From positions 806,001 to 870,000 of the forward strand of contig NZ_CP113917.1 in NCBI RefSeq assembly GCF_029395475.1: DNA of 64,000 nucleotides. The letters are read 5' to 3'. Below the pieces are notes generated by a model. That model saw nothing but the letters and a program-made list of their open reading frames with translations, searched no databases and was not told where the DNA came from. The stretch comes from Bifidobacterium sp. ESL0775. GTDB lineage: Bacteria; Actinomycetota; Actinomycetes; Actinomycetales; Bifidobacteriaceae. Positions 2,657 to 52,920 of this stretch are shown piece by piece (within the stretch, counting starts at the first letter, position 1; every line of letters begins with the position of its first letter). The position numbers and the translations under genes are program-made.

Positions 2657-3928
2657 TTATTGAATTTTAGGAATGACCAAGGAGTTGGTGTTCGGCGAAA
2701 GGTCTCGATCCAGCACCGTGCTGGCGGCCCCATACGCTGCGATGTCCTCGTCGCGTTCAGCCGATCTGACCATCGGTGTGTGTTCCTGGCGCATGACAGC
2801 TTTCTCGCGTACGGTATTGAGGATGTCATCGATGGCGAAGTCCTTGATTTTGTTCCAATACGGGCCGCCCAGCACGATGTTGTTCATGTCGAGCACGTCA
2901 CAGAACGTTGTGGCGGCACGCCCGAGATGGATGCCGGCCTGGTGCATGAGTTTGAGACAGGCGTCCTCCCCGTTTCTGGCGCGTTCGCACAGCTCGTCAA
3001 AGTAATGTTCAAGTTGCACGATGTCATCGGAGGTGTTGAATTCCTGGGGTTTGTGAACGTGTGTGGGCTCTTTGAAAAGACCGAGCGCCTCGGCTTCCTT
3101 CACGATAGCGCGTGGGTCGGTGGTCACCGTCAGACAGCCTCGTTGGCCGCACCAGCATTCCGGACCATCGACCTCTACTACAAGGTGCCCAGCGTCGCCT
3201 TCATTGCCGGTGCCTCCGTGGAAGACTTCGCCGTGGTGGGTGAAGCCGAAAGCGACACCAATGCCCATGTAGATGAATAGAAAATCCTCGTTCGTCGCCG
3301 GATCGGTGTTCCAGGCCTCACCTTGGCATGCGGCGGTGACGTCCTTGCCTAGAGCCACGGGCAGACGCACGAGTTTTTTCAGTTCGTCGACGATGGGGAA
3401 ATTCCACCAGCCCGAAAGGTTCGGCGGGTTGACGATGATTTGGTTCTTGGCGTCAAGAGGGCCAGGCGAGGCGATGCCGACGCCGCTGATACGTTCAATG
3501 GGTATGTGATAATTTTCGATGGCTTTGAGAATGGTGTCCGCGATGATTTTTATCGAGCTGGCCGCGTCCTTTTGCAACTGAGGATGGTAACGGGCGACAG
3601 TCTCACCGGCGAAATTCATCAGTACGATGCCGGTGTGCTCAGGCTCGAGATGCACTCCGAAAGCGTAACGGCCTTCCGGGTTGAGCGTCAGTGAAGTCGG
3701 TGGCTTGCCGCGTTCCCCGGTGACGGTGCTTCCTTCTTTGATGAGGTTTTCCTTGAGCAAGGAACGGACGATGTTGGAAACCGTCTGTGGGGTGAGCCCG
3801 GTCTGCCGGCTGATGTCGATGCGGCTGATACCCGATTCTTTTCTGATTGTCTCAAGGACCACACTGTGGTTGTAGCTGCCTAGGGCGGGCAGATTCGTGC
3901 CGCGTATTAACGGTTTGGTAGCGGTCAT
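2657..3928 (-). CDS. ROK-family transcriptional regulator
   Basis: Sugar-responsive repressor of the ROK family: an N-terminal winged helix-turn-helix (around residues 25-75, containing SRIDISRQTGLTPQTVSNIV) is joined to a sugar-kinase-like domain. The zinc motif reads CWCGQRGCLTV, so the three cysteines and GxxGC are present but the usual Glu after GCL is Thr. I chose the ATG at 3928 because AAGGA lies about 11 bases upstream; the open frame reaches 3979 only through TTG. It lies between the mannosidase (convergent) and the AGE isomerase (same strand), so it probably controls mannoside genes. AAACGTTT-type palindromes upstream of it and of the isomerase are candidate operators. Confidence 0.85.
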   Translation of the reverse strand: MTATKPLIRGTNLPALGSYNHSVVLETIRKESGISRIDISRQTGLTPQTVSNIVRSLLKENLIKEGSTVTGERGKPPTSLTLNPEGRYAFGVHLEPEHTGIVLMNFAGETVARYHPQLQKDAASSIKIIADTILKAIENYHIPIERISGVGIASPGPLDAKNQIIVNPPNLSGWWNFPIVDELKKLVRLPVALGKDVTAACQGEAWNTDPATNEDFLFIYMGIGVAFGFTHHGEVFHGGTGNEGDAGHLVVEVDGPECWCGQRGCLTVTTDPRAIVKEAEALGLFKEPTHVHKPQEFNTSDDIVQLEHYFDELCERARNGEDACLKLMHQAGIHLGRAATTFCDVLDMNNIVLGGPYWNKIKDFAIDDILNTVREKAVMRQEHTPMVRSAERDEDIAAYGAASTVLDRDLSPNTNSLVIPKIQ

Positions 3929-4041
3929 GCCAGCAAAGGTCCTTTCGGAAATATCATGTATTCTGTCGTACAACATCAATAATTCAAAACATTAGAAATA
4001 CTACTTGATGTCGTGGATGAAGTTATCTCGTGACAGATATG

Positions 4042-48930: not shown

Positions 48931-51900
48931 TTATCTGCTGTGGCGGGCTTTGGCTTGGCGTTGATGGCGTAGCCAATTCGCGGCGGCGAGCAGGAGGAGG
49001 GCCAGGCCCAGCCCGGCGGCGAGGAACGCGGCGAGCCTCTGTGGTTGTCCGCCGGTCAGTGGCAGGGAGCTTGTGTAGAGGCCGCTGATGCGGGTGTTGG
49101 GGGCGGTGGCGTCCTGGCTGTTGACGGTGGTGGTGGAGGTGCGCCAGGCGTCGTTGGTGACCAGTGTGGCCGTCAGGTCGTAGCCGCCCGCCTTGTCGAG
49201 GGTCGTGCTGCGCGGGAACGTGTAGGACCAGGTGTGGCTGTCGGTTCCGTTCCAGCCGCTGCTGCTCGGAGTCCATGTGGCGGTCTGGCAGTCGGGCGTG
49301 CCGGGGGAGCCGGTGGGTTTGATGCAGACTTTGATGGTGTCCGCGCTGGTCCATGGCAGGGCGGTGCCGGTGGCGGCGATCCGGTTGTCGCCGGCCTGCC
49401 GTCCCACGGTAGTGAACGCGGGTGTGCTGATCGTGGCCCACACCGGGTGCAGGGTGACGGAGGTGTGCCCGTTGGTGGTGGTGCCGTCGGTGGTGGGGAT
49501 GCTGACGGTTCCCGGGGTATTGTATTCGGGTGTGGTCTTGCCGGTGAGGTGGTGCCAGCCGGCGAGCAGGTGTCCCGCGTAGGCGAGCCCGCCGTCGGAC
49601 GTGAGGGCGAGTTTGGGCAGAGTGACGTCGGCCTGGTCGGTGTCCGAGTCGGTCAGCACGGCCGGGATGGCGGGCACGTTGCCGGTGCCGCCGTCGGTGG
49701 CGAGTGTGGTGGTCGTGTAGTCCAGCGTGCCCTGCAGGACGCTGTCGGGGCTGGTGACGGTGGTGTTGGTGGTGTCGTCGTGCGCGCTGGTGCGCGCGGT
49801 GACCCGGTAGGGGGAGCCGATGGGGTAGCGGGTGGTGAACCGGCTGGCCGTGAACCCGGCGTCCCAGGCCGCGCCGTCACGGGTGGCGTCCACACAGTCG
49901 CCAGCCGTCAGACACGCGGATACCGTGTCGCTGGTCGTGCTTGTGCCGGTGATGTCCACGCCCGTGCTCTTGTGGCATTTGGCCTGCAGTCCTGTAGGGG
50001 CGGTGAGGGTTCGCCATTGGGCGTAGATGGTGATGGTCTGCTCGGGGAAGTACTCGCGCAGACCGAGGTCCTTGATCGTCTCTCCGGGAGCGTATTGGAC
50101 GCATCCTCCAGTGGTGCCGCCCTGGCGGCAGGTATTCCATCCGGCGAACACGGCGTGGGGTTTGTGACCGGTGAGCCTGTTCGCGGCGGGCGCGCTGACG
50201 GTCTGGGCGGTGTCCCAGGTGCTGTACTCCCGGCTGTAGGAGCCGGCCCCGCCGTTGGCGTCGACGACCAGGTCGGCACCGACGTACTTCTCGTCGATGT
50301 AAAAGCCGGCGGGGTTGGTGCCGGCCTTCGAGGCCAATGCCGGCGTCAGGCCCACTGTGCCCACCACCGCGGTGCCCAGATCAAAACTGACGGTCTGCAT
50401 CCAGTTGATGTTCTGGTTGACGCTGTAGAAGGAGTTGGGCCAGGTGGTGCCGCTGATAGTGATGGCCTGGTCTTGGAGTCTGGTGTTGGGGCCGAGGGCG
50501 AGCATGCGTAGGCCGCTGGGAAGCAGGTTGCTGACGCCGAAGTTGGGGAGGTGGCCTGTGTCCCAGCCGCTGAGGTCCAGGCTCTTGAGGTTGGTGTCGC
50601 CTTTGAACATGGACCTCATGTAAAGTACATGGCTGATGTCGAAGCTGGAGAGGTCGAAGACAGCGAGGTTGGGACAGTTTCTGAACATGTAGTCCATGCT
50701 GGTGACGTTGGTGGTGGTCCAGGTGTCCAGGCCGGTGATGCTGGTGAGTTTGGCGCAGCCGTCGAACAGGCCGGCCAGGCTGGACAGGGTTTCTGTGTTG
50801 CGCCAGCCTGACACGTCGATGGTCCAGAGGTTGGGCGCGCTCTTGAAGGATTGGCCGCTTGCCAGGGCGCCGATGGTGGTGTTGCTGACGGTCCAGCCGT
50901 GGGTGTCGAGGGTGTCGAGGCTGGTGGCGCCGGTGAACGGGTTCTCGGCGTATCGGAGGGCGCGCATGTCCCAGCCGGACAGGTCGAGGCTGGTGAGGCT
51001 GGCGCAGCCGTTGAACATGCCGCTTATGCTGGCGAGGCTGGTGGTGTCGCGGGTGCCCAGGCCGGGGATTGTGGCCAGTCTGGCGCAGCCGTTGAACATG
51101 GCGCTCATGTTGTTGGTGTTGTGGGTGTCGAAGTGGCTGACGTCGATGCTGGTGAGTTTGGCGCAGCCGTCGAACAGGCTTTCCATGTTGGTGATGCTGG
51201 TGGTGGTCCAGGTGTCCAGGCCGGTGATGCTGGTGAGTTTGGCGCAGCCGTAGAGGAGCTTCTTCAGGCTGGTGGCGCCGGACAGGTCCCAGCCGGACAC
51301 GTCGATGGCCTTCAGGTTAATGGCTGACTGGAAGGCGCCGGGCAGGCACCAAGTGGTGTGGTCGTCGATCTTCCAGCCATGGGTGCCGATGGTGGTGAGG
51401 CTGGGGTCGCTGCTGAACATGTACGACATGCCGTTGTCGCCGCGGATGCCGGTGAGGTCCCATCCGGACAGGACCAGGCTGGCCAGTTGGGTGCAGTTGC
51501 TGAACATGCCCCACGTGCTGGTGGTTTGGCTGGTGTCCCAGCCGGTGGCGTCGAGGGTGGTGAGGGCGGCGTCGTAGGCGAACATGCGGTATCCGGCCGG
51601 GCCGGTGAGTTTGAGGTGGCCGGCCGGGGCCGTGGTGAGGCGCCGCAGGGAGGTCCAGGAGTCGAACGCGCTTTGGGAGTTGATGGTAAGGTTGCCGTCG
51701 ACGGCCACGCTGACCGCGGTGTTAGCGATCGTTCCTGATGTTGAGCCGGTGCCGAAGGGCGTGGAGCTTGGGGTGGAGCCGGTGTCGCCGCCGTGGATGG
51801 TCAGCGTGCAGTCCGCGCCGAAGTCCCATCCGGCCGCGCCCCACGTGCCGGCCCGCGCCGCGCAACCGGACTGCGGGCCCACGGATGGCCCGCCACGCGT

Positions 51901-52259
51901 CAACGGCGACGACGGCTCCGCGGAAGAGGGTCGGCCCGGGCCTTCGACGGTGTGCGATGCGGAGCGGACAGTGGTAGAAACGGAGGGTGAGGCGGGACGA
52001 TTGCGAAGCGACGTTGCTTTGGGGGATGCGGAAGGCTTGGAAGCGTGCGTGGGCTGTGGTGCGTTGGGAAGACGGGTCGGACCGGAAGGTTCAGAAAAAG
52101 AAGAATGGGGAAGATGACGGGATGAGGATGGGGATGCGGGTTGAATGGTGTCCGGAAATGATGGGAAAGTTTCGTTTAGACTAGAATTGCGGGGGGGGTT
52201 AGTGTTGACATCGTTGCAATACAAACCAGCACCGAGACCAACGTGCGGATGACACCCAT
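48931..52259 (-). CDS. BspA-like repeat LPLTG surface protein, frameshifted at G8 tract
   Basis: Cell-wall anchored protein of about 1100 residues. The body has many 24-26-residue DUF285/BspA-like leucine-rich repeats (MFNGCASLTSLDLSGWDM and similar), then an InlB/flg-new type module (ITIYAQW), Ig-like parts, and a C-terminal LPLTG, hydrophobic helix and basic tail. The body frame, read upstream to 52419, has no signal peptide. One begins at ATG 52259 in another frame (MGVIRT then LVSVLVCIATMSTL) and stops after 27 residues. The frames meet at eight C on the coding strand (52198-52191). One extra base would join them. So this copy is read as OFF; phase variation is likely. Confidence 0.82.
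50709..51251. repeat. 54-bp direct repeats inside BspA-like gene
   Basis: Bases 50709-50762 and 51198-51251 are identical over 54 bases, 489 bases apart (a multiple of three). A second 35-base pair lies at 50737-50771 and 51145-51179, 408 bases apart, also in frame. Recombination between them would change repeat number without breaking the frame. Confidence 0.85.
52191..52198. repeat. Eight-G homopolymer at signal peptide of surface gene
   Basis: Run of eight G on the plus strand (eight C in the coding sense) right after the predicted signal peptide hydrophobic core. It is the longest G or C run I noticed in the window. Homopolymer runs at this place change length by slipped-strand mispairing. 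Confidence 0.85.
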
Positions 52260-52647
52260 GGCAAACACCAACCTTTTTCTTCAAAACCGGAACCCGGCGA
52301 TGTAATACATTGTCGTATGCGGTTCCGCCGTTCCGATGAATCCACACCTTAACGGCTTTCCGGTACAAAAACAACTGTCCGCGGGCGCGTGGAAACAGTG
52401 TCACACCATGTTCTGTCAAATAAGTTTGGAAGGTTTGAAGTATATTGATTTCAAGTTTTTGACGTGATTAGTAAAATCTTTGACATAGTACTGAAATGTC
52501 TTTGGAAATGTTTTCGAGACGTGGATGCTACGGCGTGTCGCATTTTATGACAAGCTAAGTCTGAATGTGATAAATAGGGCACTGAATGAAGGGAGTCACA
52601 GATTTTGGGCTGCTGAAAACTGGCCTATCTTAGCAGTGAGGTTCATG
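52260..52647 (-). other. Upstream region of the BspA-like gene
   Basis: 388 bases between the surface-gene ATG and the stop of the small downstream gene. On the minus strand TATACT (52444-52439) is a possible -10, giving a leader of about 170 bases; no good -35 was seen. AAAAAGG lies 12 bases before the ATG at 52259. The remainder is AT-rich with no gene. Confidence 0.4.
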
Positions 52648-52920
52648 TCAGTTTCGGATAGTGTCTGATTTAGGATTGTGGGTTTTCCGCTCGGGAATCG
52701 GCTTGAGGGCGACGATTCGGTCGCGGGGGATAACCACGTTCTGTGCGGGGCGAGAGCCGTTGGCGGCTGGGTCGCGGGTCAGGGCGAGGGTTTCGCCGTC
52801 CCATGAGCGGACGTGGCCGATGTAGTCGCGGAACTGTTGGCGGCCGGTCTGCGGGTCTTTGCCGTCGAGCGTGCGCACCGTCAGCCGCGCGCCGGTAGGA
52901 ATGGATTGTGGCAGTGGCAT
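52648..52920 (-). CDS. Small conserved actinobacterial protein (DUF6725-like)
   Basis: 90 residues: a beta-rich core (GARLTVRTLDG, then YIGHVRSWDGETLALTRD, then VVIPRDRIVALKPIP) suggests an SH3-like barrel. I believe the family is DUF6725, seen in bifidobacteria, but the function is unknown. ATG at 52920 preceded by GCGGAAA. Single gene, divergent from xerC. Confidence 0.7.
   Translation of the reverse strand: MPLPQSIPTGARLTVRTLDGKDPQTGRQQFRDYIGHVRSWDGETLALTRDPAANGSRPAQNVVIPRDRIVALKPIPERKTHNPKSDTIRN

Follow-up and report, generated by a model that had tools for sequence, protein, structure and literature searches.

Poly-C runs between export-signal leaders and DUF285/BspA wall-protein genes: a putative phase-variable family in Bifidobacterium sp. 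ESL0775

Slippage at homopolymers has been measured directly in bifidobacteria for the coding-sense poly-G tracts of sortase-dependent pili (Penno, 2022; PMC9187656), and the mention of such tracts in the first-pass annotation of the DNA described here is correct according to the available text of that source. The same text reports that bbr_0113 of Bifidobacterium breve UCC2003 is annotated with a G11 tract while maximum depth sequencing finds G12 in 59% of molecules, that limits of sequencing or assembly are one possible cause of this mismatch according to its authors, and that both recorded B. breve pilus tracts lie mainly one base from the productive length (PMC9187656). The pili of B. dentium are named as another case of such tracts in the portion of a further paper considered here (PMC12104195). 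In Gardnerella, tracts of at least 8 bp are found near genes for surface proteins including LPXTG proteins, and the tract of a GA-module gene has 9 or 10 bases among colonies, as far as the accessible part of the report goes (PMC11287997). A search of open PubMed Central by titles and abstract openings returned no tract-gated DUF285/BspA family in bifidobacteria. Here, we describe such a candidate family, starting from one gene of Bifidobacterium sp. ESL0775 in a stretch of 64,000 nucleotides (the window).

The gene lies on the minus strand and consists of a leader and a body that are in different frames on either side of a C run, and inspection of the sequence bears out this part of the first description. 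The leader (52176..52259) resembles an export signal; it starts with the ATG at 52259-52257 and stops after 27 codons with a TAG just past the run, its own-frame translation being MGVIRTLVSVLVCIATMSTLTPPAILV before that TAG. The run comprises eight C in coding sense (G8 on the plus strand; 52191..52198) and is the proposed site of slippage. Downstream, the body (48931..52188, minus strand) has 1,085 codons and a stop, and encodes leucine-rich repeats of the DUF285/BspA type (PARCEL), with matches to PF03382 (DUF285; 143.8 bits against a curated cut-off of 25, E = 2.5e-42), TIGR02167 (PARCEL repeat, E = 1.1e-40) and LRR_5 (E = 2e-8), the DUF285 and LRR_5 matches both exceeding their cut-offs. 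A text match places LPLTG at 49051..49065 (minus strand), followed by a hydrophobic stretch and the basic tail RHQRQAKARHSR. Situated at the C-terminus of the body, this is a motif that we take to be a sortase-type wall anchor. The leader had been called a clean signal peptide, a term that suits its hydrophobic core but not its end, as leaders of this type have by eye neither an AxA site nor a canonical lipobox.

Ahead of the leader ATG, a purine-rich AAAAGGT (52271..52277, minus strand, by eye) may act as ribosome binding site, and a similar AAGGTTGG precedes the leader in most paralogues. The region at 52260..52409 (minus strand), recognised by identity among paralogues, forms the conserved upstream part of a cassette, with an untranslated leader and possibly a promoter; a promoter scan of 52180-52700 gave two weak sites against a shuffle mean of 1.0. 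The body frame is also open for about 90 codons upstream of the tract, with TTG 52419 as the first listed start, and in this stretch neither a ribosome site nor a signal-like segment was seen by eye. The seven neighbouring ORFs match prephenate dehydratase, prephenate dehydrogenase, DUF6725, Phage_integrase, Exo_endo_phos and DUF3710, with one unmatched, and Pfam matches identified no sortase among these seven at the window locus. No Rfam element was matched in the window, and the window body had no match to defence families and no sequence match to solved structures.

In its layout the gene is like bbr_0113 and bbr_1889 of B. breve UCC2003, where the available text likewise describes an export signal and an LPXTG body as two ORFs split by a homopolymer, tract length deciding their fusion and the recorded state being out of frame (PMC9187656). 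The differences are several. By the same text, the pilus tracts are G on the coding strand, whereas all 14 loci of the present genome have C in coding sense; the B. breve pilus gene heads a cluster that has a dedicated sortase, while no sortase adjoins the window gene; a table gives one or two pilus clusters per strain, in contrast to 14 loci with shared leaders here; the productive change in B. breve is mainly the loss of one base, whereas the offset here is in the opposite direction; and the bodies are DUF285/BspA repeat proteins and not the B. breve pilus genes (PMC9187656). The Gardnerella tracts share the proximity to surface-protein genes, but about 70% of the G/C tracts there lie upstream of ORFs, and the accessible part of that report describes no leader-run-body family (PMC11287997). 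The body repeats exceed the curated cut-offs of the PARCEL/DUF285 surface proteins (TIGR02167, PF03382), although the definition of that family mentions no run and many tract-less relatives have by eye an ordinary in-frame signal.

The first-pass annotation treated the locus as a single gene, and while the layout is real, it is one of 14 in this genome with a further 31 tallied in relatives. The 2.255-Mb single-contig genome has 14 C8/G8 or longer runs, 12 of which are placed directly between a leader and a large open frame; the two outside this layout are in L018 and L020. The phosphoketolase of the genome aligns over its full length with the solved enzymes 8io6, 3ai7 and 3ahc at more than 1,600 bits; these are enzymes of B. 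longum and B. breve, in keeping with the genus. Searching the genome with the leader motif likewise gave 14 loci (reversed-pattern control 0), two of them with C7 runs in addition to those found through C8+ runs. Run lengths are thus C9 at six loci, C8 at six and C7 at two. Five of the C9 loci are clustered at 167-198 kb; their bodies measure 1,731-1,906 aa, except for a fifth that is clipped by the fetch edge (open frame 2,009 aa), and the other nine loci lie elsewhere. None of the 14 is recorded in frame: 12 share one offset and both C7 loci have the other. Twelve bodies reach an LP.TG end (LPLTG or LPMTG), one is edge-clipped and one, L022, is broken. In L022 (5285-6055 onwards; G000:C1, about 2,007 kb) the body frame breaks about 257 residues in, by eye away from any homopolymer, and the remainder of the protein with its repeats is encoded in a different frame. 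Tract length, proposed from the start as a point of comparison among homologues, differs among paralogues: it ranges from C7 to C9 among own loci, is C8 and C7 on near-identical leaders of the MGVIR group, and is C9 and C8 on the near-identical leaders of L148 and L153 in the related genome G088. The ESL0775 genome also has two tract-less DUF285 genes in which a leader of similar kind is in frame with the body.

Leader and upstream region are far better conserved than what surrounds them. Among six MGVIR paralogues, mean identity is 78-84% over -150 to the ATG and 97% over the leader, as against 20-25% upstream of -350 and 54% at +400 to +900 of the body, so that leader, upstream region and run act like one cassette common to bodies that are themselves diverging. 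Cys13 is invariant in all 21 distinct leaders of the window type (G000, G085, G086; compared were the 14 own loci, L084 with two, L179-L181, L187 and L192-L196), and over these leaders the first, second and third codon positions of the leader frame differ 1263, 523 and 1391 times. The low variation at second positions and the invariant cysteine fit selection on the leader as a peptide. The leaders of G088 are of other kinds, some resembling ordinary signal peptides by eye, and lie outside this set of 21. Searches of the other 111 genus genomes for the window leader with its run, and of the other 188 family genomes for the leader core with up to three mismatches, gave no hit; two leader cores had none in viral contigs and the 1.1 kb around the leader none in plasmids (near mode only). 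Close relatives of the body were absent from GTDB contigs, where five distant loci at 29-38% identity were found.

If the leaders were disconnected remnants and the bodies pseudogenes, the out-of-frame record of all 14 own loci and the second frame break in L022 would be accounted for. The bodies speak against this. Thirteen of the 14 are open as far as covered, 12 of them with the LP.TG end, and a crude simulation of 20% unselected substitution in the window body produced at least four stops in 500 of 500 replicates (median 14, never none), whereas the body itself has no stop. The run, too, is pure at all 45 tallied loci, a count to be read with the fact that purity over 7-8 bases was part of the criterion by which loci were found. 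Decay is therefore very improbable as an explanation of the family. The open frames kept despite divergence suggest that the bodies are translated at least part of the time. Their residues are another matter: dS of 0.47-0.60 and dN/dS of 0.62-1.06 for the 15 pairs of six own bodies, and dN/dS of 0.58-1.46 for the best-matching body pairs of G085 and G089, some of them poor matches, point to sequences that are weakly constrained or diversifying while the frame stays open.

Of 112 genomes in the genus, 34 have DUF285, and the arrangement of leader, run and body recurs with other leaders in G088 (17 loci in four leader groups, grouped by eye), G085 (six), G089 (five) and G086 (three). These come from 80 of the 105 C8+ runs of eleven relatives, classified in C sense only; the 80 comprise all runs of G085, G086, G088, G089, G090 and G093, two of six in G084, one of six in G083 and none of the 16 in G087, G091 and G092. 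A filter on leader hydropathy (1.9) and body length (300 aa) passed 33 of the 80, from which L159 (antisense side of the L161/L162 region, offset one) and L211 (the single G093 locus, offset two) were dropped; L097 (G086, C6, offset two) has a run under 8 and falls outside the 80. DUF285 was matched in 11 of 13 bodies sampled from own loci and relatives, L161 having a List_Bact repeat instead and L179 remaining unmatched. Two side observations concern other runs of relatives. L188, L190 and L191 in G085 and L200 and L201 in G089 are copies of a repeated element with a C10 run and no large downstream ORF. At L221 (G084:C1:681754-685762; ORFs 2791-3513 and 3491-4009, both on the plus strand) a G11 run interrupts an ORF that by eye resembles a DNA cytosine-5 methyltransferase and whose remainder is in another frame; the methyltransferase of this related species may thus be phase-variable.

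The three G086 loci have C8, C11 and C8 and are in frame. The first-pass annotation had held homologues with an intact signal peptide in the body frame to count against a switch; such homologues do exist, as these three run-bearing loci and as tract-less genes, and in our reading both favour a fused leader and body as the functional form and do not refute the switch. Together, the evidence makes it probable that the window gene belongs to a 14-locus contingency family switched by slipped-strand phase variation. In each gene, a putative export-signal leader is followed by a pure run of 7-9 C and then by a large LPxTG leucine-rich-repeat protein predicted to be wall-anchored; replication slippage would alter the length of the run, and only lengths that join leader and body in one frame would yield an exported, anchored protein, other lengths leading at the own loci to a stop about 25-30 codons in. 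Each cell would then display a subset of the family. The sequences themselves establish the arrangement, the number of copies, the frames, the recurrence in four relatives and the open bodies; variation of length within the population, surface exposure and an adhesive or antigenic role are what we infer. The mechanism is favoured because 12 of the 14 C8+ runs occupy an equivalent position in genes of one kind, because lengths differ among near-identical leaders (the MGVIR group, L148/L153), because run-bearing G086 loci and tract-less DUF285 genes of this genome have the leader in frame, and because the bodies stay open though diverged; published slippage at bifidobacterial pilus tracts (PMC9187656) and the 9/10-base variation in Gardnerella (PMC11287997) add to it, as far as those texts were available. 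As for the criteria applied to contingency loci, a homopolymer of at least eight bases in frame is present at the window (C8) and, as C8 or C9, at 12 of the 14 own loci, and that run length decides full reading is seen on the sequence from the leader and body frames and the three in-frame G086 loci. Against phase variation we count the dN/dS of the own bodies, which combines open frames with weak constraint on residues, and against independent switching the phases, which are too uniform. The original proposal of a phase-variable surface protein thus stands in its layout and in slippage as best mechanism, and is less secure in the OFF state assigned to this copy.

The uniformity is considerable. 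Among the 45 tallied loci (14 own and 31 in relatives), 39 have one offset, three the other and three, all in G086, are in frame (39 of 46 with one offset if L211 is included); in G088, G085 and G089 together, 28 of 28 are out of frame and 27 have the majority offset. With leader groups as units, G085 and G089 merged and several leaders homologous so that the units are not fully independent, the ten groups outside G086 have this offset without exception (P = 1.7e-5 if phases were equally likely), or 10 of 13 with G086 included (P = 0.0016). Since the in-frame length is 9, 10 or 11 depending on the group, the offset is not simply one preferred run length, and on these counts its uniformity is more than independent switching would predict. 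It would be due to one of three things: a modal OFF state, long runs consistently called one base too short, or recoding at the run. We lean modestly towards the recorded out-of-frame state being the true majority state, in which case slippage together with selection may hold the majority one base from fusion. The two recorded B. breve pilus tracts are comparable in being mainly a single base away from the productive length, but in the other direction (PMC9187656). The window copy was called OFF; it is out of frame as recorded and OFF remains likely, with less certainty than first given because a modal state, a short call or recoding could each produce the uniform record.

A short call would mean that runs of 9-11 C were assembled one base short and that the sampled population really has most or all family genes in frame. 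They would remain prone to slippage, so that the mechanism overlaps with phase variation and the state differs. This would account for the uniform offset in four genomes as well as for the in-frame G086 loci, and the bbr_0113 mismatch is a precedent in the available text of PMC9187656. Calls two bases short, however, amount to two of eight at in-frame length 9, one of 22 at 10 and none of 12 at 11, a share that does not rise with run length, which is unlike compression and argues against under-calling, and the frame is intact across 13 of 13 scorable coding runs in 378 kb (12 of six bases, one of seven), neither tally reaching runs of 9-11 directly. A G8 run at L174 was dropped as an in-frame control of base calling, as the frame spanning it overlaps a real-looking gene on the opposite strand. 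We regard general under-calling as rather unlikely.

Recoding would instead make the recorded offset the working state, a -1 ribosome slip on C CCC CCC or a slip of RNA polymerase giving constant low-level fusion across the whole family. The frameshift heptamer C CCC CCC is present in the run, every leader frame with the majority offset by arithmetic reads at least two CCC codons within it, and the one offset at 39 of 45 loci extends across leader groups that differ in run length and frame alignment. In G088, an A-to-C difference of L151 against L147 extends the run to 10 and leaves the offset unchanged, and in G085 and G089 all 11 loci have C10 despite clearly diverged bodies. On the other hand, no stimulatory RNA fold was found downstream in 10 regions sampled from the 45 loci (z above -1 in 10 of 10), three open-body loci (C7, C7, C8) would need another shift, and the in-frame G086 loci need none. 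Ribosomal slippage, moreover, is not known to require long pure runs of 8-11 bases, which we count against this explanation, and we consider it quite improbable. More speculative than the phase-variation reading itself is the idea of the offset as a built-in set point. All members of the family would be kept one base from fusion, a single slip in replication or by recoding being enough to switch on giant surface proteins one by one, and this set point would be retained across species although bodies, and even run lengths and flanks, diverge; we think this unlikely.

All 45 tallied genes are head-on to replication, compared with 20 of 34 tract-less DUF285 genes, listed by hand, and 14 of 21 such genes within the five tract genomes. 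Orientation was taken from the position of dnaA (152.7 kb, minus strand, in the present genome), with the terminus assumed at the midpoint and two loci, one in G085 and one in G089, within 3% of it; sampled GC skew flips near 152.7 kb and near 1.3 Mb (33 samples, five of other sign). Non-family C8+ runs of eight genomes have C on the same, lagging-sense strand in 45 of 52 cases. Head-on orientation as a feature specific to the family is weakened by this (Fisher P = 0.014 for the rest), and the bias is mostly a general strand property of C8+ runs in these genomes.

Tract switches on pili are known in bifidobacteria, and what is found here looks like a larger, family-wide version acting on DUF285/BspA wall proteins. 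Annotation would tend to log such genes as truncated or signal-less, and the uniform offset poses a question that reads can answer, namely whether the recorded homopolymer state is biology, base calling or recoding. If the switching is real, a commensal genus would have a bank of switches that acts on wall-anchored repeat proteins, beyond pili, and differences in the cell surface would arise from cell to cell within a clonal culture.
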